Of a stretch of DNA of 64,000 nt, positions 1 through 45,700 are shown one piece after another. Source of the stretch: Apostichopus japonicus (Eukaryota; Echinodermata; Holothuroidea; Aspidochirotida; Stichopodidae); assembly GCF_037975245.1 (NCBI RefSeq), contig NC_092583.1:17508764-17572763 (forward strand), in the 5' to 3' direction. The position numbers and the translations under genes were made by a program. Numbering within the stretch: position 1 is the stretch's first letter; the number at the start of each line of letters is the position of its first letter. Under the pieces are notes generated by a model. It was not told where the DNA came from. It did no database searches and saw nothing but the letters and a program-made list of their open reading frames with translations.

Positions 1-7786
<7,786 letters not shown>

Positions 7787-12080: not shown

Positions 12081-15000
12081 CTACAAGAGAAAGGATAGAT
12101 GAGGTTGGGTTAGATATTACATAATACACTAAGAATTAACGGAAATGCAATCAAGTTTCTACGATATGACAGACTTATGTTACAGATGTAGGGTTTGAAT
12201 GGCTTTCTAAAGTAAAATGACAAATAAATTCAAGTTGTTGTTTGTTTCACATTTCAATGTAATCTTCATGAAATTTTTGACTTTAAAGTATCATAGGGTT
12301 GAGAATATTTCATTTCCTCTGTCGATAAATAATTTGAGCAACAAAACAAAAGGAACAGTCAAAGGCATTTTCAACTCTAATGCCATGATGACAGCATTTC
12401 ACCATACTGTGGCCAGAAGCTGTCAGAAAGATTCACCCGTATGTTCGTTAAAACACATACTATCTGGATGCAAAATTCACCTTGTATTGAAGATAATTTA
12501 CGGCTTTTTGTTCAAACAGTGAACTTTCTCTAACGGCTATTCCTTTAAATTAAGATAATGCCAGTCATTTGTTATGATGACGTCTTCCAGTACATCCATT
12601 TAATGATATAATGTAAGCGTTTCTATTCACCTTCATTTCTGATATCTTGTACTAGTTTCTCTGTGTACTTCCTGGTCAGAGCTGCTGTTTGATGAAAGAC
12701 CTCCTCCTCCCCTCCGAGAGCTGTGATCAGCACCTGCTGCTTTCTTGAGAGGACAGCATCGGGGAGATCAACAAACAGTAAGTTGAAGAAGGGTACCTCA
12801 ATGTGGAGGCCTTTGCTGCAATTAGTCCCAGTGGCTGCATAGCATGCATGACAACTGGTAAAGTCCTGGCATTGGCTCCTTGTCACACAACAAGTCCCTG
12901 GATAAATAAAAATTAACATGAAAATGTCAAATTGATCTTCTTCAATCCCTGCATGTTGATGGTTACACATAAGGAAGCAAAAACAACAAAAGCAAGTCAA
13001 AGAAACAACCATTCAAAAAAAAGCAAAAAACTACTTTAACTCCCTGTGCAGAATGTTAATTATCACCCAAAACTCTATATCTACTATGGCTGTAATGATT
13101 GATCTGTTTCGACCTCAAGTAACCTTTGACCTCTACATATTTTATAGTGCATTTAAGTTATATGTGACTATATTTAGTATTAAACACATCGTCTAAGTAA
13201 AATGCATCCAATGATTTGTGTTCATGTGTGAACATTTTGAGACAGAAAAGTGGATTTCTTGTATAAAATGTTACATTGACTATACTTTTTACTTTTTCTC
13301 CTAACATCATTAACTGGTGTAAGAATTCTAAGGTCCATCTCAAGTGAAACTTTCAGCTTGTTTACAGTGGAAACCTAACATTTTGCAGTAAGACTGTTTT
13401 AAGTACGTTTAATATATTACACCATGTCTAATTTGGAATTTCCGAGCCAGTTTTTGCATAATCCTGTTTTATACATAATTAGCTTACCTTCTAGGGCTTC
13501 CCGCAAAGACTGATGTACAAACGATTCGATTACGGCTCTTTGTGTCAAGAACTGATCCACAGAAAACTGAGACGCCGAGTTCTTTATTACTGATATGGAT
13601 GTTTTATTGATGGTCTCTAAATAGTAACGGTCAAGCTCCTCTTCTAGCAGTCCAAGCTCAGATTTCCTGATGAGAGAATAATGAATGAAAATACTGAAAA
13701 TATGGATGTCCTGCAAGGAATGTTTCAATAGACAAACACAAGGTACAACTATGTGTAAGGAAACAACAAAGCTCTCTTTTTCCCCAAAAAAGTTTTTGAC
13801 TTTTGATTGGATTGGGTCCCACTTATTATAAGGTTATGTGACAATAATACAATATACCAATGAATGTGTTGCATTCATATTGCCATGCATCATAATACTG
13901 AGGTACAAAATTCCATGTCAGCTTGAAGACAAACAAGACAATGTCAATGTATATTTATGACATTCAGGCACGTAGCCAAGGGGGAGGGGGGCAAATTTTT
14001 TTAACTTATTTTTTATATCGCTAGTAATTTCAAAATAAAAAAGGTTAGATGCAACTTACAAGGCCTGGGAAGTGCCATTTCCAGTAATCTGGGAGGAAAT
14101 TTCTGCCAACATTTTCAAAACCTATCGGCTTGATATTTAACTTTCTATATCTTGACAAGGCATAAATAGAACCTGACCGCAGATCTCACCATGGTACTCA
14201 CAACATGTCCCTTGTTCATCAGTAAATAGAAATCGTGACTATCCTTTAAAATGTAAAAGTGTCAAAAACAAACAGGATGTACTTACTTTAGAAAGAAATG
14301 AAAATGACAACGGAATGATATCCTCAGGGGGTCTGTGGTGTATATTCGAATGTCTTCAAATTCCATCGTATGCGCTACAGCTGAGTAGGGCTTAAAGATA
14401 TTGCTTGGTCCAATAAAGTATCTGCCGGCCTCAAAGACATCGTCCATGTAGTAAACAAAATGGCTGACCCGTTTCATCTTGAATCCCATCTGATGATATC
14501 AAGGAGAAGAATGAAACTTCTTAAAGAAAATAACTAAGGTTAATGAGAATAGCAACCTTAGCTATGATTCTTGTATGTAAATTATAAAGCTAGGCTGGGA
14601 ACATCTGCTACCACAGTGTGGTAGGTCAAGGCTAATCAATGATGTTTGTATTCAGATTTGTTATGATATCAAAGGAACAAGATAACAGCTAACAACATGA
14701 CACTGAAGACCCACAATACAGCCAAAGGCCTTAAATGAATTTCATCTCTGAAATGTAGCATAAGATGACATCCCTTGGAACACCATTCTTAAATCTTGGC
14801 AAGGGTTGCAACTCACACCTGGTAAAGAAAGCTGATGTTACCAAGGCGACTATCAGCAGCAGCAGCATTTGTATGGCTTCACAAGTCACATTTAACATCT
14901 CTATTAAATCAGTTCTTATATAAGCGCTTAGACTGATAAAGAAAACGTCACAATTTGGCTGATTCACAAACCAAAATGAATATGTCTTCAACCAACACAA

Positions 15001-18000
15001 GAGCTCCAACCTCACAAGCCTGAATAGCTACAACAAGTATATATAAGTTTAAAACTACTGACCATTCGAGTTATAAGTTTAAAATGGAGTGAAGGCTTGC
15101 ACAAAGAAACGTCTGATGCCAGTAATTTGACCTAGTTTCAAATGAGGTGTATCAGAAGTGTTAAACACCACCATCGATCCCAGAAAATACACACATAGCT
15201 TGCTACCGTCGGTAATTAGACACTAGTGTACAGTCAATACATGTAGCTACTGTCAATACCCACAACACAGTGTACATAGCAGCGATGGACATCTCAGGTC
15301 CAGATGAAAGATAACAAGGTATCATGTTTCATTACTGTCTGCATTTTGTAGCGACAAGAAAAAAACTTCACTTGCAAGCAACGGAATGTTAACTTTTTCA
15401 GAGGGCGGCACAAGGTTTGGGGCGAGTCTTCAATGCCTTTAAACTGTGTCGACCATTCAGATATTAAGTATTTAACTGTGTCGACCATTCAGGTAATTAG
15501 TATTTAACTGTGTCGACCATTCAGGTAATAAGTAATTAACTGTGCTGACCATCCCGGCCTAATACCTCACACCTAAACTAATAGAATAAACTGGTACACA
15601 CCTGGGTGTAGTCTAACTTCTGTATGGACAAGATGATGAGAAGTAGAAATAAAGCTATGCAAAAATTGATGAGAGTGGTGAGTGCTGTCTTGACTCCTGG
15701 TCGAAACATTCGGACTTGTCTGAAGGCCGGCCTGAGGGGGTCTGGTATAAATCTGGGGACATCCCCATCCTCTGACTCATCCACATCGTCCGTTTCTCTT
15801 GCTTCAATGTCCTCATTTGCAGCATTTTGTACATCTTTAGAGGAGAATTAAAATGTCATTCTAAAGCCATCTGCAACAACCAAACATTAAATTAAATTCC
15901 CACAACTAGACCAGGCTTAGCAATTCCTTCCATCTATTTGTGCACATATTTCTTGGTACTCAATACACGATGTACTCAATACACGATGTACTCAATACAC
16001 GATGTACTCAATACACGATGTACTCAATACACGATGTACTCAATACACGATGTACTCAATACACGATGTACTCAATACACGATTTACTCAATACACGATT
16101 TACTCAATACACGATGTACTCAATACACGATGTACTCAATACACGATGTACTCAATACATGATGTACTCAATACATGATGTATTTAATATATGATGTACT
16201 CAGTGAGGTAGATTTACGGAACAGGTATCAAGTCCAAGTAACATGGTCTTTGAGTTATCAAGCTTAAAAGGCAAGGCATCACAAACACAACTAATTAACA
16301 TACTATCATCATCATATGGAATCTTTTGCCTTGGACAAGTAAATGAAAAAGAACCAACAGAAACATTGCAACTATCAATAGACTGATGTTGAAAAGGTTC
16401 TAGCAAATGCCTTGCAAAGAAAACATATATAAGAACATGGATCTTAAACTTATAAGGAACAATGGTATGTCATTTGACATTTGCCAAAATTTAAGAGCAA
16501 CAATGACTGCAGTGACGCTCAAATTCTAAATTTCCCACAACTGAATTGGGGATAGGGTAATTGAAGCTGATTCCCATGAAGGGGGGGGGGGTCTGGCAGT
16601 TATCTCCCCACCCCTCCCCCACCCCCAAAATAAGTACTTTAGAAATCAAATAGTGCATTCCAAGACATACTTAGACTATAAACTAGGTCTATAACTAGCT
16701 CTAGATGCAAGGTTGTGCTAATAAATACTATGAATTAGTTTCTGTGTAAGGTTAATAGGTTAATAGGGGGTGTACAACCATAGCAGTGGTCTCATTCTTC
16801 CTGAGCAGCTGAATTTAAAGTATCCCAAACTCAACCATTTGCCCCTGAGGTGGAGGGGGGATATGGCCTGTTTTTGGATAACAATTGTCCTACTCACTAG
16901 TTCCATCATCTTCAGCCACCCAGGCTTCCCGACTTCTTGGTCTACCATCATCTGTGAATAAGGGCAAAATAAATCAAACACTAACATACTATGCATGCTT
17001 TCAATAAGATAAACGAAAAAACATCACAGGTGGCAGTAATTCTTGAAATTTTAGCTAAACCATCCATCTTTTCCTATCATATCGAATCCCTTTGTGTATA
17101 TCATCTCTTCCTGCCCTCCCCTCCCGCCCCTCAAAAAAATAAAAATACAAGTGAACATGCCTCAAAAATGTAGGAATTATTACAAAATTGTTTAAAAATG
17201 TACCCAACACAAAAAAGAGCTAGAACAATCACATTTTTAAATTACTTAGGTATTCAATTCTCCACAGTAGTTTCAAAGTATGTATAGTTGATTTTTTTTA
17301 ACAGCGTGCAATAATTTTTGTTTTTATTAGTGCATTAAATTTTGCCATGAATCTGAAATTGCATGGGAGTTTCACCAGGTAATTGTCTGTTCCTATCATA
17401 TCCCATGACATCTATAACCTTCCACCCCTCCCCCACACATCCCTCCCCCACCCATCCCCCACCACGATGGCGAAGCAAGGCATTACCTTCACCCATGACA
17501 GAGAGTTCCAGAGGTGGTCCTGAGCTGGCCGCTGATGCTGATGTGTCCTGTAAAGCACCACGTGCTTCACTAGCACCCTGTAAATGAGGTTTGTACAGGA
17601 TTCAAAGTTATGACATACTGTGCAATGCATGCTTGGTATTTTGATCATGTGATATGATAGAATTAATGCCCCATGCCAAATACTGCCATTTAGATTTGAC
17701 ATATTAGCTTTGAAATATTAGTTCAAAGAATGCTCTTTTCTTTACTCAAGTAAGCATGGGTTCAACCAGATTGGGAATACCCTATCTGAGCCATTGCACA
17801 TCAGAAGAAGGGAAAATAAACTTGCGACTCAAAAGTATTAACAGTAAGAAGAATGTTACAGAAGCTTGTACTAGTGTGTCGTTACTACGGTTACTGGTAC
17901 TGGTTTAGCACAGAACTAGATATGCATTGGCACATTTAAACACAACTGGATGGGCAATGGCACATCGGACTTTCACTCAAGAATACTAAAGAGACAATTT

Positions 18001-21801: not shown

Positions 21802-21854
21802 AAAATTCCTTTCTCTTTCATCAGTAATATTACTGATGAAGAGAAAGGAATTTT
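21802..21854. repeat. Near-perfect hairpin palindrome
   Basis: Arms of about 25 bp: AAAATTCCTTTCTCTTTCAT plus CAGTAAT against its complement ATTACTGATGAAGAGAAAGG plus AATTTT, with one unpaired T. No flanking direct repeats are seen. Confidence 0.85.
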
Positions 21855-25776: not shown

Positions 25777-25815
25777 GTTACAACCATAGAAATAATCAAT
25801 TTCTATGGTTACAAC
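25777..25815. mobile_element. Minute palindromic insertion, copy 1 (23 bp)
   Basis: CATAGAAAT-AATCA-ATTTCTATG (25785-25807) flanked by exact GTTACAAC at 25777-25784 and 25808-25815. Confidence 0.6.
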
Positions 25816-26528
25816 ACGACTCATCGCGACCGTACTTTTCGATAGTCGTGAAGACCACATAGTTTGCGTGCAACTTCGCACAAGCGCTCAAATGACTGCT
25901 TACCACGCTCGTTTTACCCACATGCAAAGTTTACTATCCCGTGATTACATTTTTAAAGATCGACTGGCCAATCTTAGCCGTGAATCGCCGCTAATATAGT
26001 CGACTGTCACTAGGGAAACTTAGGGGAAACTCCGGAGAACCCACGACTTATGGTAAACCGGCATAGGTGGTGGGTAGGGATGGAGTGGGTTGGGGAAGTA
26101 GTTAATAAAGACTAACTACAGCCCGCTGCACAGTGCCGAATTGTCGTTTTACCAGAGTATAGACGACACTACTTATACCAGGAACAACTCCCTGCTTATA
26201 CCAGCTAGTGATCGATCTCAGTCTTAAAGCAGCATTTTGCGTTTGGTCGCCGTTTTATACTTTTTTGACATGTTCATCGATTTTTTTTTACATATATCAA
26301 TCACAAATCAGCAAACTAAGATATTAGCCAAGTTTTTCCCTGTGAACAACGTTAATTGGCGAGTAATTATGGATATTTGCAGATAATGAGAAGAGTGTCC
26401 ACGACAAATTCCACAGTTAAAATTTATCGCACACAGTTCCGCCAAACCCACTAGTTTGAATTCAACCAATCAGAGATGCAGGTTTAGTTATGAGCCGTTG
26501 CTAAAAATAGATTCAAGGCTTTGCGTTG

Positions 26529-26576
26529 GTACAACCATGGAGGTAAAAACAGATGTTTTTACCTCCATGGTACAAC
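26529..26576. mobile_element. Minute palindromic insertion, copy 2 (34 bp)
   Basis: A 34-bp perfect palindrome (26536-26569) with 16-bp arms CATGGAGGTAAAAACA and a GA centre, flanked by exact GTACAAC at 26529-26535 and 26570-26576. Confidence 0.65.
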
Positions 26577-26590
26577 CATAGAGATGTAAT

Positions 26591-27614
26591 CACTGGCGGA
26601 TCCAGGGCCTTTGTTTGGGAGGGGCCAAAGTGGCATTAGAGTGATATGGGGGAGGGGTCTAAGGGGAGGGGGTTCCCCCCTCTCCCTTTGGAAAATTTTC
26701 TATTGCTGAATGCCCTCAGATGCAATTTGGTGCGACAAAAGTGTACAATGGTGATGTTAATTCACTTCTAAAAAAAATGTTTCCCAGGTGTAATTTTCTA
26801 AAATATTTATAAAACAAAGTTGGGATCATCTTTCTCAAGAAATTTTATTTCTCATAGGTTATAAATTTCTTACAACCAGCCTGTAACTGCAAAATGGTGT
26901 TAAACTGTAAATCCTCATGCTCATACATTTACATAGCTCCCAACTCTTGAGAAGGCAAATGCTGGTCCATGCCACGAATCGCCGTCCTGGGGGAGGGGTA
27001 TAAGGGGAGGGGGCGTCCCCCTCACCTTTTGATTTGTTTTGGAATCCTGGTGATGCCTACATGTAAAATGGTGGCACTTAGAAAGGCTTTTGTCACCCAA
27101 AATTTTCTGAGAAATATGCATTTTTTTGTGTGTAAAATCAATAAATTGAATAGTAGGTGATAATTCATTTTTTCCCGTGGCATGAAAATGTTCGCTGCTC
27201 GCCCCAATGAAAAGAAATATAAGCTAATTTGAGGTTCAAATGATGCTGTAAAGGAGGTTTTATACTCTATTATGCTAAATGCTAAAGAAATGATGGTTGC
27301 TAAGTCAAAATTTGATGCAAATTTTTATGTATACTTGACAATTACAATGCGGTTTTTTTCGGACGCTTGTGCGAGTCAGCTGGTTTGGGTGTTAGAATGC
27401 GGGTCTAATTCCCGCGAATTGCGGGTCAGTTGGGAGCTCTGCATTTAATTTTAAACCAGAAAACGAAAAGGTTTAGACTAGTCTACCACTGCTATTCCTC
27501 TCGATTTTTTTAATTTCCAATCATATGATTTAGCGGATGTTCGGAAACACTTTTTGGCTCACCTTTGGGGGGCCATGGCCCCCCTTGGCCCCCCCCCCCT
27601 TGGATCCGCCAGTG
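26591..27614. mobile_element. Non-autonomous DNA transposon with CACTGGCGGATCCA ends
   Basis: Terminal inverted repeats CACTGGCGGATCCA (26591-26604) and its complement (27601-27614). ATGTAAT sits directly before the left end (26584-26590) and again at 27621-27627, six bases past the right end, so a 7-8 bp duplication with an extended right end is likely. G-rich internal blocks recur (GGGGGAGGGGT(C/A)TAAGGGG at about 26650 and 26990). No transposase frame. Confidence 0.8.
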
Positions 27615-29470
27615 GCCATCATGTAATGGAACTCCCTGGTACGACTGCAATATAGACTGTACACAAATCAAGCATGGTGTTGTATTGGTCAATGACGTTC
27701 GTAGTGTTTAAATATGCATATTATGAGCGAGGTTTATTGGGTTCTAACGGTAAATATCTTGGAGAAAAACAAAGCTGAAAGTTGCAAATTTTTCGACTTT
27801 TATGCCACCATATGAAGTAAGACTTAAATAGATAAGCTAGTTATGTATGTCGTTATGGCATAGTGGAGTCAGTGAGGTTGAGAAAAATCATAGCAAAGGA
27901 CGCAAAATGCTGCTTTAAGCAAAGTTACAGTGTATAATGTGAACACTATAGTCTGCTGTAACCAAATATTTCTACTCATTTGCACTCATACAATATATGA
28001 AGACAAGTTAATGAGTTAATGATAATCTCATGTTTTACCGCACATTAACCACTGATATGCAAATGAATTTCAAGTCAAGTGCATTATTATCAGTGCTCTG
28101 TCTGCGGTTCCATATCTCTTTACTTAGACTTGATCCAAACATCTACACTATATCTGACTATGTCTTTATAGTAAACCCGGCAATGTATTGGATGCTTTAC
28201 GTGATCGTTGTAATGATTGAACAATTAAAGGATTGTTCAGACTTCTTTAAGGGACGGGAAAGGCATCGACAAAGGGGGCATTGGTCTAATTGAGTTTAAC
28301 TAAGGAAATGGTCATAGGCTTATACAGTTACTTTATTGAAGAGTTGTAAACCGCACTTTAGTGGTTAACGTGGTTTGTAGTAATAGTTTTAACCACAAAG
28401 GACTCCATTCTATTTAAGGTAATAGCCTCCTCTTAATATATATTCTCAGTATACAGGCCTATTGCAAGTTTGTTTTAATTGAGTGTTCAATTTGTAGACT
28501 TGATATATCGAACTTAAAGCCCCAAAGAGTGTTTCCAGGGTTCTCATTACGGGAGCGTAACTACCATAGCTTAAATCTATTAAGGGGTTAGCCTATACTT
28601 GCTTATTTCGTCAATTAGGTATAATATAATGCACAACAGAGTTCGTATGATAATAAACCAATTAAAGTTGTAACGTCATTGATTCTTTTATTCGTTGATT
28701 TTAATTTGCAACTAATTTGCCGCATTGCCTCGTAATTAACTTTGAATTATTCCGGCGAAACCTCTTTTTGGCTGTTCCGTACAAATGAACTGATCCTATT
28801 AAATGCAGAAACTTGTCTGACTCATAAAGTCAACGAAAGTAATCATTTGAATATGTATGTAATTTCGCGAAACTGGGCCTGCTAAACTAGTTAACCGCAA
28901 TTCACTATCGTGTTGTTATGTTCTGGTTCGTGACATTTGAAGGCAAAACGCAGTTTTGAGTAAATTGATTCCCCAGCATTCCAAACACATACATTGTGTA
29001 TGTGTGTAACTGTTCTGTAATACATGCTTTGGTAATGGTTGATAATGGTTTGTGCATGCATATGATGGTGGTAATAATAACGGTGAGAGGGTAGGCTATA
29101 GTTGTAGGACCTTATGATAGTTCACCTGAAAGATATTTCTGAAGTAGGAAATTGAAAGACAATTTCCTGGATGACTTCCAATGTTGGCCGAAGTTTCGGG
29201 TTTTTAGAAGAATTAATGCGATTAAGAAGCGATGACGTCAGTGTTTGTTATTCTCCTAAATTCCATGAAAGGGATATTATGGGTGTATATATTGGTTTAT
29301 TTTACAAACCACAGGATATATATACTTGAATCAAATAAGCCATTACAATATGGTCGTTGAAATAATTTTGTCGTTTAGAGGTTGCGTATTTCCGACTACA
29401 ATCCATTGGTGATTTTGGATGTTCTTATACAGCCTATGCTGGACTATGATCACTAATTCACAATGTTTTT

Positions 29471-29579
<109 letters not shown>

Positions 29580-31393
29580 GGGTTTTCATATTAACAATTG
29601 TTTTATAAGGTTAGATGTACTTATCATAAGTTAAGTCAAGGTGGTTTTAGTAAACATTATATGCAGGGCTAACTAGGTACAAACGTTACGTTCTGAAGGA
29701 CATTGTGATCGTGGAAATATTACCTTGCAGTGTTGATTATACGGTTCAGCGACAAACTATATTTTCTAAGTTATTACTTGATCCTCCTCTCAAATTTAGA
29801 TGAAACTCCATTGGAATAATGTACATGGAACACATACAAAACATTAGCTCCATGTTCACTCACTTGTTGGAACTCGCAAGTCGCCAACATATACATGTTT
29901 GTGATATCTTTTGAATTTGAGAGCTTACAAGCGTATTCTTGATATCAGGAATATGTTTCTATCCTATTGCATCGTGTATATCGGATCGTGTCTACAGCCA
30001 ATTGCAAAAGTGAGCACTATTTGCCAGATACAACCATTTATAAGAGTATCAGTGATATGTATAGGTAAGTTTGGATACACGTGGTTTTGTTTCGTACACA
30101 GCCCCCCCCCCCCCCTCCGTCATTCCAAAGGTTTACCCCGTGAGCAATGGCCATTTCACTAACTTGTTTTGAATGTTACGTAATTTAGAACACTATAACT
30201 CATGACTAACACGGAATAGACCATGCTACCATGCACGCAGTGGGGCGCAGCATATATACACAGCAGAGGCATGGTTTGTGTGTTGAATGGGTGGGTGGGT
30301 GGGGTACTGGTGGGGATCATTCCTATACAAATGACCGCCGCGACAGATCCTTTTAAAAAAAAAAAAATTCCTTCTTCATCACTAGGCTTGGCAGAATCGA
30401 CAAAATGTGTAGGTCTACACTGAACTGATGGGTTTGTATTTTCTGAGAACGGACAGACAAAGCATGACCTACAAATTTATATATATATCATCATACTACA
30501 TAAATTCAGTGTACTGATGTCCACTCATGATCATATGCAAGGTTCCTAACTGACATACTTAATACAAGTAAAGATGTAGTACATTGACCGAACGTTTACG
30601 TTTAGGTAGAATATACGTAGAGTAGAGGAATATGGAACCGTCTGCCAATATAATATTGTATTACAACTCTACACCTTTAAGATACTTTAGTGCTGCAAAA
30701 TTCGGATTATTTTGAAGGTCAGTGACTTGAACAATCCTTGAATCATCATCATCTCCTTAGAACGAGATCTGCTCACTGAATCAAATTTAAGGGAATGTTT
30801 CCGTTTTTGTGAAGTTCAGGGTTGTAGGAAAGAACTTTGCCACGTGTATAACGCGTGCCTGGAAAGACATACCGTAATAGATAATACAGCCTGTGCTTAA
30901 TTTTACTACATCTGGAATAAAGTCAGCTTGTGAATATATAAATATTGAATTTATTCACCGTCATTAACAGTGAAATATGGTATATAATTACTATGATATT
31001 GAAGATGTAAAAAGCGGGATTTTCCATCGTATATAGGGCAGTGGGCTCTCTACTCGGGGTAAGTAGCCCGTGTCGGATGTGGGTGTGGGTGTGGGGGGGG
31101 GGGGGGAGGGGGCGAAGGTAATGACAATGCTACCGACAATGTTTTGTAGAAATTGAAATTATTTTAATTTTTTCAGGTCAGTCAACATGTTTGCAGTAAG
31201 GAATAAACTGCAATTGGGTGATTTTTCACTGGTCACGGTAAAAACAAAGCAAAAAAATACCAGCGATTGATGGTTTATCATGAATTGTCCTTACATAGTT
31301 AAAGGCGTAAGTGATAACAATATAAAGTACAATCAGTGGCTTAAAGACAATTATTTCAATTTTCCACCCCTCTTGAAGTTTTCATTATTTCTA

Positions 31394-32033
31394 AGGTGTT
31401 CCCCGGGGTGCGAATGGTTTTTCCCAAACAGGTTTGCAATTACGGAGTTTTCAGCCAATCAGATTGCTCGTGACGTCAGCATCAATAATGACCATCGCTT
31501 GGAAGTTTGAAGACACTGAATCAGAAGAATGATATAAGGTCCATACGTCATAAAATGTCAAAACATGAATGAGTTCATTGACGTCACTGAAACATGGTGC
31601 TTAAGCTGAACATATCAATTTTTGTTGTTGATTGACTTGGTAAACTTAGTAAAGTCTAGTTACGAGGTTGGATCACATATTGACCTTACTTATGATACAT
31701 CGCTACATTCCATTGGGTGTGTCCACGTTATCCAAGAATCGTGAGCCGTTCTATTGAAATCGGAATTCCTTTCGTGGAAAGGGTACACTAAAATCAACTT
31801 CACGACGCGAGTTCACGAGTCTTGAATGAATATTCGCAAAACATGACAACAGCCATTCATTGAATCCGCACAATACGTGAGTCCGTTGCAACAAATGGAT
31901 GCAGACAGTTTGGTAACCTCGAAGTTAAGGTTTCTATGGTGATGACGTAACTTTTCCGACCAATCATGAGCGGCTGTTTACACATAATTGCAAACCTGTT
32001 TGGAGAAAAAATTCGCCCCGGAGCGGGGATACC
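31394..32033. mobile_element. MITE-like element with long inverted ends and TA flanks
   Basis: Ends are inverted copies: GGGGTGCGAATGGTTTTT then CAAACAGGTTTGCAATTA on the left, and the complement at the right (CAAACAGGTTTGCAATTA is exact in both). Similarity continues to GTGACGTCAG/GTTACGTCATC, giving arms of roughly 80 bp. TA flanks both ends (31392-31393, 32034-32035), which fits Tc1/mariner-like insertion. Internal sequence is non-coding. Confidence 0.75.
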
Positions 32034-33346
32034 TAGCCCCTTCCGGGTCCCTGGGGCTGTATGCCCAACCCCATCCTTTTCTCGTTAGGGTTTATTATTT
32101 TCGCACGAATATACACGATAATGGGCAGGATTAGGAGGTGTTTGATCACGGGGTTAAGTATCGCACAATACTGGATGGAGTTTCTATTTCTATATAGTCC
32201 ATATAGAATGTTATATATTATTACATAGCCTACATATGGTCGAATATGTATGATATTTGATCTATAGTACCTCTATAGAAAAGTATAGACTACTAAACAC
32301 ATGTGGTCAACTTTGTATAATATTTGATCTATAGTAACTCTATTTTAAACTATCGACTAGCAAACACCATGGTAATAATATGTCTGAAATAACTCTAGAA
32401 GGATACAGGTGACACATCCTCTAACATTAATGTCTACAACTTTGGGTTATATTACAGCCTGAGCGATCTTTGTGAAGGTCAACTCCCTCAAACAGCTAAG
32501 AAAAATCTTGATTCATTTGGGGAAAGTAATGTTTTGGAGCTTGTCATTTTGTTAATCTGTGATGTCACAGTGCCACTACGATCTGGAACATTTTATTTTC
32601 TCTTCGTGTTTCTTGTCATATATTTTCAAGGTGATAAACCAGTAAGCGGAACAGGGCCGGGTTGGTTGATTATTATACTGCTTGCCAATTTTAGGTCTTA
32701 CTTTGCTGCTCTTATTCCTAAGCAAGGTCAAAATCCGATATGAAATTGTCCAAATATTCCAATGATAGGCATCTTCGGTACCATCTCAGTTAATTTTTTT
32801 TTTCATTTTCATTTTTTTTTTACTGAAACCATTCATTGTCATTGAAAACCCCTTTCTTTCCAGCCCAGAGTGGTCCTTATCAGAGACTCAACCCCATCGG
32901 CGGTGCACTATTTATATACGTCACAGTGACGTACTAAGCCTACACTAGTATACCGTTATAATAAAGTAATGTTTACTAAGAGCTGGCACTGTGACATCAT
33001 GTTGTGGCTCTTCGGTAGGATATTAACTCAGTTGAAACATACTGTAACATTATCCTTTGTTTGATTTTCAGAGCTCAAGTCAGTCCGCAATGTTATCATC
33101 ACTTCAGCAGTCAGTATTTGTTTATGTTAGGCCCTACCTCAATCAGCTGAGAGAGGGATGGGAGCTGGCGTGTCCAAACACAGCTTATACTGTTCGTTAC
33201 GTATACAGTATTGTCGGTCACTGATCGATATCGTTAGAAACGTTATAGTTCCTCTCACTGAAACCTGGTGCATCCAGACACGCCTACAACTAAGTTCATT
33301 ATTTACATTTGAGCACCTTAGTAATACACCATCATTTCCGTTAACA

Positions 33347-33465
33347 GCAGCGACATATATTTTCAGTGCGACGACGTATATTTTCGGTACAGCGACATAT
33401 AGCTTTAGGACAGCAACGTACAAGATTGGTACAGCGACGTATATTTTAGGCACGACGATATATAT
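33347..33465. repeat. 24-bp minisatellite
   Basis: About five degenerate copies of GCGACGTATATTTTCGGTACA-type units. Frames with repeated YVAVPKI on the minus strand are translations of this array. Confidence 0.8.
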
Positions 33466-33620
33466 AGTGTCCCTTTTTGCGTTCCTTAGACAGGACAGTA
33501 ATATACTTCCATGATAGATGGGCCGTCACGAGAAGACTGGTAATGACATCGATACCCGAAAGTTGGAGAAAACACTTGTCCTGGGGCAAGACGAAACGAG
33601 AAGATTAGATATCCGATCCA

Positions 33621-33652
33621 GCTATACCATGGAGGTACCTCCATGGCTATAC
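33621..33652. mobile_element. Minute palindromic insertion, copy 3 (18 bp)
   Basis: CATGGAGGTACCTCCATG (33628-33645), a perfect palindrome flanked by exact GCTATAC at 33621-33627 and 33646-33652. Confidence 0.6.
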
Positions 33653-42700: not shown

Positions 42701-45700
42701 TTGCATTATAAAGAAGCGCTTAATAGTTGATACCGCTATAAACGTCAAAGTTTATATGTATAGGCCTAGGCCTAGGCCTATATATATATATATATTCTTT
42801 CCAAATGAGTGACCGTTCAACTTGTGTGGGTTTATGATTTAATTGAATTGGTCTATAAAAAATACAACTGGAATGGTCTTTATGAAGCTTTAGTGGCTCA
42901 TAAATTCCAGGTTATTTCCGTTATAAAGTGAAAATAAAGGAAAAAGTGCATTTCTATTTGCCACAATTATATTTTAGTTCGAGATATGATGGCCTATGGA
43001 TCGACTCGACAGAATCGACAGAAATTTCTATTCTTCAATTGAAAACTACGTGACAAGGTTTTCCCAAAGTTTACCTATTATATAGGCCTATATATTAAAC
43101 TTTTCGAATGATCATTTTAAGGCAAAATATAAAACGATTTCTGCTGTTTCTGATTTATAAGTGCAAATTCAGTTTTAATTTTATTGAGCTTACGAATATC
43201 CTATCCAGCAAGATTATGCCTTTATGTCTTGGTACTTCAACAGAGGATAGATGGGTGGGAGGGTGTGTGTGTGTGTGGGGGGGGGGGGGTGCATCGAGAG
43301 GTTTACTTATAGGAAATAACGGAGCGTGACAAGACTATGGTAATTGTTTAAACAGAAAGAACTTGTATTCTTTAGTTGCATATCAACAATAGAGAATGGA
43401 AATCATGCATATATTTGTCTTCGACCTACAGTATATAAACACTAACTGAATTGTGAAAGTATTATTTGATACCGCGGTCTTCTTAAAGGCAATGTGATAG
43501 GAAGGTGATATCTTGTGGGTAACCCTAGCTACAGAAGAGAGGAATAACGTGTATTCGTAACATCGTCCATATTCAATTTCATTCACTCTCACCCCCTGAT
43601 GAAAGAGGGTGGTGGGATGGGTTAGATTGACTAGAGGTGGTAGAGGGGTTGGTCGGTATCATTGAGTGTAGAGGGAAGGGTCGGTATGATTGAGTGTAGA
43701 GGGATGGGTCAGTAAGATTGAGTGTAGAAGGATGGGTCGGTATGATTGAGTGTAAAGGAATGGGTCGGTATGATTGAGAGTAGAGGGATGGGTCGGTAAG
43801 ATTGAGTGTAGAGGAATGGGTCGGTGTGATTGAGTGTAGAGGGGTGGGTCGATATAATTGAGTGTAGAGGAATGGGTCGGTGTGATTGAGTGTAGAGGGG
43901 TGGGTCGGTGTGACTGACGGTGGTTTGAGGGGTACACTAGCAATGAATACATTACTGAACCTATAACATTGTAAGTCCATTGACCTATTCATGTTATGAC
44001 TCATAATTGTTCAGGATACAGACTTCTCAGACAATGTTTGTCGAGACAACATGAGAGAAACATTCAAAGTGAGGTCAACATCCCCTTTCAACCAGAAAAT
44101 CTTCAATGTTTATACTTGAGATATGCTATAGATATTAATTGTTTGTATTGCACTAAGCAACAAAATACGTGACAAGTTTTGTTTAGAATTGACACGGTTA
44201 TGTGACAAGGTTGGAGGCGTCAACTACTGCCCCGCCCAAGGGCATTAAACATGATACCGTCTTTATCACATTTTAGAGGATGTGAAAATGTTTGCTATCT
44301 AAAAACGGAGAGAGAACAAAATGGTAATAATCCTTTCTTGGGGAACTGATTACAGCAGATCTGTCGCCATGTTTTAAAGGGTATTCTTATAATTTACGAC
44401 ACATGTTGTGTGTGTTGGTGCAGTGTACAATGAAGTTGCCTCATCAAACTACGTGCACGAAACGAGTTTTCGAAAGTCTCAATAGGAAACATGCTCGAAT
44501 ATGGTGAAGAAACTGACTTCATAATAGATTCAAACCATGCACGCAGGTTGGTCAGAATAGCAACTATTACAACAACTTGCGTTTTTTTTTCAAATGAAAA
44601 ATGGTAAAGAAAAAAAAAACCATGGTAAATAATTTACTGCAGATTGTTTACCTTTGAGTCATGTGTGGCAGCTTTCTGAAATTATTGATATTCAGATGTT
44701 TCATCGAAGGCAAATTATTTTGTCTTACTTGTGTTTTCTCTCAGCCTACAAAATATACAATAGAAAACAGGATTTCCAGTTGAAATGAAACTTGTGTTTG
44801 GTCTATAATATACGTTTGAAGTTTTGTTAAGTGCGAAGGCATTTCAGTTAGTGACTTCTGAAGATTTGTGTTATCCAAACAACATGAGAGGGTCCAACAA
44901 ATACCTTTTAGGACACATAGTAGTTTCATTTCAATGTATTTGACTCCTTTGACATTTACACACAATGAACGGTAACCATTTCCAATGCGATTACCGCGAT
45001 TTTGTTCTATAATGTTTTCTTTTTAACTGAAGCGGTTCAAGTCGCTTTGATCTTTAATTATATAATTATGACTTGAAAGGAAGCCGACGAAAGCACTTCA
45101 CCAAAATGCCTTAAATAATTCGCAATTTTTTCAAATCTAGTTCAAGTTATCCTTGTAATGTTGTGATCTTGCAGCTACTGTAGCAAGTTCCAAGAAACCC
45201 CGGAATAATTGCCGACCAGTTCTTCTTTTTTCTCTCTCGATCCGTTCGGCAAGTGTCTTCTGCATCACATATCACCGAAGCAGATTAATGGTGCATCATA
45301 CCAATGTGTTAGGCGCGTGCGCAGTACGGTATGGGCTATAAAATCTAGTAACAAATATCACAGTTTATCTATACAAAATGGGACATCGGATTCGTATCTT
45401 GACGCACTCACAAGACCTGTTTCGCGGAAATAGTCCCTACGAGACACTTCACTTTCCAACTTCACAACATGGGCGGGATAAAATATGACCAGTGGGCTGT
45501 TACCGAGCTACCCGATGTGACTAATTTATCGTTTATAATCAAATATAATGGATATATACAGAATGTTTATATAAAAATATCAGAATTGAGTACCTCGTAG
45601 ATGGGAGCCGAGGATAGCCTTTTCATCAGGGACATAGGACAATCGGTCAACATTCTCCATCAGAGAATGAAAGTCTCCATGGTTTCACAAATCTTTTATT

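Follow-up and report, generated by a model that had tools for sequence, protein, structure and literature searches.

The accessible text on P{w-a} excision in Drosophila describes joins made from 17-nucleotide (nt) tails, in which the footprint comprises the target duplication and at most 17 nt from each terminal repeat, closed through microhomology, bluntly or with filler DNA (PMC2895639), and a review, in the part available, calls this 17-nt stagger unusually long (PMC7776569). Galileo, a Drosophila transposon of the same P superfamily, is described in the available text as making duplications of 7 bp, with a few of 8, at the palindromic target GTANTAC (consensus GTATTAC; PMC4168063), and zebrafish Pdre2/THAP9 is credited, in the accessible part of its source, with 13-bp ends starting CATA and an 8-bp duplication (PMC10983969). 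Here we describe three short palindromes between direct repeats in a 64,000-nt stretch of the genome of the sea cucumber Apostichopus japonicus (the window; G000:C23:17508764-17572763). They very probably represent excision footprints, or scars, of P-element-superfamily-like transposons, closed by end joining.

As a sequence-only reading of the window had described, the palindromes and their flanking repeats are exact, being letter-perfect at 25777-25815, 26529-26576 and 33621-33652, with layouts of direct repeat, palindrome and direct repeat of 8 + 23 + 8 bp (scar 1), 7 + 34 + 7 bp (scar 2) and 7 + 18 + 7 bp (scar 3). Palindromes with arms of 9 or longer that lie between exact 7-bp repeats number two in the window (scars 2 and 3), against a total of one over 100 dinucleotide shuffles; scar 1, whose own repeat is 8 bp, falls outside this 7-bp rule. 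Each scar can be read as a join of two ends of one family (A or C, defined below), as follows.

25777-25784, no strand: left target duplication of scar 1 (family C), 8 bp, GTTACAAC; from the sequence check and the 8-bp rule of family C
25785-25807, minus strand: scar 1, CATAGAAATTGATTA (15 nt of the 17-nt C end) and ATTTCTATG (9 nt of the other end), with a common A; decomposed by eye using the C end
25808-25815, no strand: right target duplication of scar 1, 8 bp, GTTACAAC; sequence check
26224-26591, plus strand: copy of a dispersed repeat containing scar 2; alignment to locus L039 over 26224-26578, other copies compared
26529-26535, no strand: left target duplication of scar 2 (family A), 7 bp, GTACAAC; sequence check, and present as a single copy before the CAGGGAG module in empty copies
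26536-26569, plus strand: scar 2, CATGGAGGTAAAAACAGA (18 nt of the A end) and TGTTTTTACCTCCATG (16 nt of the other end), joined bluntly; decomposed by eye
26570-26576, no strand: right target duplication of scar 2, 7 bp, GTACAAC; sequence check
33621-33627, no strand: left target duplication of scar 3 (family A), 7 bp, GCTATAC; sequence check
33628-33645, no strand: scar 3, CATGGAGGTA and TACCTCCATG (10 nt from each of the two A ends), with TA in common; decomposed by eye
33646-33652, no strand: right target duplication of scar 3, 7 bp, GCTATAC; sequence check

Similar palindromes recur throughout the genome. Counted over the whole 671,581,487-bp assembly (35 contigs), with the same pattern reversed as the control, the loose pattern CATRGA-N(4-30)-TCYATG occurs 7351 times against 3963, and the tighter CATGGAG-N(2-32)-CTCCATG 1816 times against 61, with two of 50 listed places of the latter looking, in our judgement, like chance. 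The family A 17-mer CATGGAGGTAAAAACAG is present in 545 copies (280 + 265) and the family B 17-mer CATGGAGCTATAAACAG in 697 (336 + 361), both with a control count of 0, while the family C 14-mer CATAGAAATTGATT reaches 105 (52 + 53) against 11 + 0. Scars of this kind in the genome appear to number well above a thousand. The sequence-only reading had taken the shared ends and target duplications as signs of transposition, and these counts, far above their controls, together with duplication lengths that are fixed within each family, bear it out. In the open-access literature searched, we found neither a genome-wide account of such scars nor a paper containing any of the four end sequences used as queries, which is weak evidence of absence. 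A few places stand apart from this general picture. Nine B-family 17-mers lie in one orientation, mostly at 35-bp spacing, at G000:C2:31519238-31519738, where a scar has apparently become a tandem array, and seven C-family 14-mers with a regular 172-bp spacing at G000:C16:19710285-19711330 represent a scar or a chance copy within a tandem array. The palindrome CATAGAACGTACGTTCTATG at L014 and L015 apparently belongs to a longer repeat outside these families, because the two loci have common flanks and no direct repeat.

The flanking duplications follow the family of the end. A first set comprised 20 loci (21 of 50 listed CATRGA places, palindromic by eye); an exact 7- or 8-bp repeat was present in 13, a repeat with one mismatch in 4 and none in 3. 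The larger family A sample comprises 70 of the first 76 listed places, six paired places having been left out and read separately as L094, L095 and L097. Within it, an exact 7-bp repeat within 60 bp flanks 41 rows (mean 0.41 and maximum 3 in shuffled flanks), and 54 rows when up to one mismatch is allowed (mean 7.8, maximum 16). For exact repeats of 6, 7, 8 and 9 bp, the tallies are 45, 41, 8 and 3 of 70 in A, 11, 10, 2 and 1 of 20 in B, and 15, 14, 14 and 3 of 22 in C, where shuffled flanks give 0.38 (A) and 0.14 (B) at 7 bp and 0.06 (C) at 8 bp. Some rows are redundant: in A, L046/L047 represent both strands of a single site, and four further pairs (L029/L040, L109/L110, L117/L118 and L132/L133) come from duplicated loci; the B rows count the seed L018 and two nearly identical loci, L149/L150; and among the C rows are two seeds, L011 and window scar 1, together with the pair L192/L193. 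Leaving out the second of each redundant A pair gives exact 7-bp repeats at 38 of 65 sites, and without seeds and one of each near-identical pair, B retains 8 of 18 at 7 bp and C 11 of 19 at 8 bp. Duplication length is set per family, at 7 bp in A and B and 8 bp in C, and therefore both lengths occur in the window; the lengths of "7-8 bp" given by the sequence-only reading were right, although they resolve into one rule for the CATGGAG families and another for the CATAGAAAT family. Its impression of a "G...TA...AC look" likewise captured a common pattern, which is better cast as a palindromic target preference of about TnnRTnnnACnnA. Among the 41 A repeats, this target has T in 34, G in 18 (A in 14), T in 35, A in 33, C in 25 and A in 30; at the duplication edges, the inner positions are the T (35) and A (33), and the outer ones the G (18, with A in 14) and C (25).

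Between the duplications, one side retains up to 17-18 nt of a fixed end and the other a variable remnant. In the 70 A rows chosen for an intact 17-mer, position 18 is occupied by A in 52, T in 17 and G in 1, and position 19 shows no conservation; because conservation stops after the 18th base, the retained end seems to be 18 nt long in A and B, the other end retaining 0-18 nt. The C end reads CATAGAAATTGATTAGG (17 nt, to AGG) in 8 of 22 rows, its 18th base (A) being ambiguous, and the idea of a constant sum of duplication and tail (25) was dropped, as the C tail length is ambiguous. Joins were classified in 38 of the 41 A rows, omitting L098, where the final G of the 17-mer is already the first base of the second repeat, and two rows with an identical 30-bp left flank. 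Nineteen show a one-nt overlap, 11 are blunt and 8 contain filler; the 10 B joins divide into 6, 3 and 1, respectively. If trimming were random, overlaps would be expected at 2-4 of the 19 possible trim positions for A and at 3-6 of 19 for B. Further variants include joins without a second end (L044, L098, L113 and L135 in A; L182 and L192 in C), both ends kept around 14 nt of filler (L094), an end repeated as a templated insertion (L095), and some joins with one duplication lost. The 50 listed CATGGAG-N(2-32)-CTCCATG places hold 36 distinct inserts, the commonest being a 26-mer found five times. This 26-bp join (17 + 9) also appears in 15 of 54 A rows, with different duplications at unrelated sites, and corresponds to a join with one A in common after an 18-nt tail. 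L117 and L118, once considered two independent excisions, were dropped as such, their joins being one base apart. Like miniature inverted-repeat transposable elements (MITEs), the scars are short, with inverted ends and target duplications; unlike MITEs, they have no common interior, as the distinct inserts and one-ended cases attest, their joins vary and sometimes include only one end, and they would be left by excision rather than inserted as such. Several origins had been offered by the sequence-only reading, of which only end-joining products fit: one-ended joins, filler DNA and lost duplications speak against minimal end-only elements, and hairpin insertion does not fit.

Scar 2 lies inside a dispersed repeat, whose left flank has 1276 candidates genome-wide, and the 20 next-best copies were fetched of 39 others listed. 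Fourteen of the 20 are empty, with a single GTACAAC directly before a CAGGGAG-type module that is diverged in some. Four (L162, L164, L166 and L170) carry an A- or B-type scar at the scar 2 site, three of them with diverged repeats, and two (L177 and L179) differ there. L039, L162 and L166 probably descend from one event, with one kind of join in common. The empty sites with one flank copy that the sequence-only reading had looked to in related genomes thus exist for scar 2, here as paralogues. In the window, an apparent diverged CAGGGAGTTGTTATGG module (by eye) follows the second GTACAAC on its 3′ side, ended by another dispersed repeat from about 26589-26591. CATAGAGATG, to the right of scar 2, was considered as another end and dropped, as it looks like a diverged module of the host repeat; L067/L083 proved uninformative as a filled and empty pair. 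Separately, most fetched copies (e.g., L163 and L171) contain, as part of the scar 2 repeat itself, a CAGGGAG..CTCCCTG palindrome that sits between copies of GTACAAC and looks like an older scar that spread with the repeat.

These features can be accommodated by the following series of events. A P-superfamily-like transposon would insert, making a 7- or 8-bp duplication, and its transposase would cut the element out with a long stagger, 17-18 nt inside each end, leaving a donor gap with two 3′ tails of the same sequence, presumably single-stranded. End joining, either microhomology-guided or blunt and with occasional filler synthesis and trimming, would then seal the gap, so that the residue would consist of the two copies of the duplication and, between them, at most 17-18 nt from one end followed by 0-18 nt from the other. 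Such joins would read as near-perfect palindromes because both tails are the same inverted repeat. As for the likely agent, the P-superfamily transposase domain PF21787 matches 45 times in the genome (best E 3.6e-45) and not at all in 14 control genomes, and THAP9-like genes that carry a P transposase domain are described in the available part of a sea cucumber genome preprint (PMC13228809). The sequence-only reading did not recognize the family; the best match is now the P-element superfamily, an assignment that we infer, as no full-length element with these ends was seen.

The resemblance to described systems is close in form and incomplete in detail. The P{w-a} joins share their form with those described here, namely the duplication, at most 17 nt kept from each terminal repeat and the three kinds of join, as far as the accessible text goes (PMC2895639), whereas the present scars are natural, numerous and divided into three or more end families, A and B having a 7-bp duplication and apparent 18-nt tails, and the element itself is unseen. 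With Galileo they share 7- or 8-bp duplications and a palindromic target resembling GTANTAC/GTATTAC, as given in the available part of that study (PMC4168063), but the known copies of Galileo have long terminal repeats and nothing comparable was found here. Pdre2/THAP9 shares CAT-type ends and the 8-bp duplication, according to the portion accessible (PMC10983969); its end sequence differs, and its full element is known.

Several observations weigh against excision of a P-like element. First, no full-length element with scar ends was found among the listed places searched (the first 100 of 545 A, the first 100 of 697 B and 100 of 105 C) or the transposase stretches, and the window holds no longer element with scar ends and duplications over spans of up to 5 kb. 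Convergent end pairs 0.3-10 kb apart among the listed places number two, neither with matching direct repeats: C4:14203788-14209255 and C2:23817227-23818285 were rejected as full elements, their flanks being inverted or unrelated. A B pair 20.8 kb apart (C2:29967140 and C2:29987910) lies beyond that range. None of 35 transposase stretches, most of them 3.2-3.4 kb and too short for both ends, combines a CA..TG inverted repeat with a 7-8-bp duplication. Candidate parents were set aside accordingly: the P transposase regions L065/L066 and L055/L056 have left boundaries unlike scar ends (only the left side being reached), and T58, T61, T62 and other stretches are without fitting inverted repeats. 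The parent elements may have been lost or may now be rare. Second, A and B seem to have 18-nt tails instead of 17-nt ones, and the 15-of-54 recurrence of the 17 + 9 join exceeds expectation from independent repairs. Third, an exact family-length repeat is missing in 29 of 70 A, 10 of 20 B and 8 of 22 C rows, and 16 of 70 A rows do not have even a one-mismatch 7-bp repeat. L096 (G000:C4:2614310-2614440), a 17 + A + 17 join that lies between inverted flanks (AAGTTGCAC / GTGCAACTT) and not between direct repeats, is a contrary case, and L097, among the paired A places, an ambiguous one. Finally, the empty copies of the scar 2 repeat come from the same genome, and are neither alleles nor sister-species sites.

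The first two of these points bear on an alternative agent, namely a non-P cut-and-paste superfamily with a long stagger, whose excision would leave similar footprints. That no P transposase is linked to scar ends in the 35 stretches, most of them too short, and that the A/B tail looks 18 nt long, would both suit such an agent. We nevertheless consider it unlikely, since a stagger of the 17-nt class, CAT ends, 7- or 8-bp duplications and a palindromic target jointly match the P superfamily, as it is described in the accessible parts of the sources above, and P transposase domains are present in the genome.

Somewhat less likely still is that the short palindromes are themselves mobile, as end-only micro-elements of 18-35 bp moved by a transposase acting in trans. 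The recurring 26-bp join, at unrelated sites with different duplications, and the 18-mer of scar 3, found again at C1:5395314 and C1:6525158 among the 50 listed CATGGAG places, are what such units would produce. Against this, the listed places hold mostly distinct inserts, one-ended and filler joins still keep the duplication, and the 26-mer is explained as a one-A overlap join after an 18-nt tail. We know of no transposase that moves end-only units of this size.

Local replication template switching can yield perfect inverted repeats with flanking direct repeats without any transposon, and could hold for odd cases such as L096 with its inverted flanks, but it is highly improbable for the bulk of the scars, given that the same 17-mers occur 545 and 697 times with none in the reversed control, that duplication length is fixed per family, and that empty paralogues of the scar 2 repeat point to insertion.

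Other features of the window can be noted briefly. A long near-palindrome at 21805-21852 has a 24-bp perfect core and arms that continue with a one-base offset, without flanking direct repeats. Tandem arrays of 199-bp, 16-bp and 28-bp units and a 103-bp perfect AT run occupy 3036-4372, 15956-16202, 43640-43917 and 29475-29577, respectively. On the minus strand, p97/VCP-like exons appear as open stretches at 542-805, 2069-2353 and 2606-2890, a 43-residue piece of the middle one matching p97 chains (E 3.7e-27); this match and the split genes fit, in our judgement, with animal nuclear DNA. An open frame at 13420-13833 (minus strand) has a weak Band_7/SPFH match (E 0.0043, under the curated cut-off). 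Rfam and tRNA scans of the window returned nothing, and Pfam searches of four window open reading frames gave sub-cut-off matches only.

Excision footprints of P-superfamily-like transposons, as we read these palindromes, would be ordinary in mechanism and unusual in abundance, with new end families. One tentative idea, which we hold with considerable doubt, is that the families represent ghost P-like transposons known only by their scars, in at least two geometries: an 18-nt tail paired with a 7-bp duplication (A and B), and a 17-nt tail paired with an 8-bp duplication (C). In that case, P-type transposases would not be tied to a 17-nt stagger, and germline excision and repair would stay readable in genomes after the transposons themselves have been lost. 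Footprints are usually studied assay by assay; here, seemingly well over a thousand natural germline repair joins with defined tails would make end-joining preferences readable in a non-model animal. Even where no copy of a transposon family turns up, its scars can allow the family to be inferred, and very short palindromes in genome assemblies may be products of repair rather than minimal elements.

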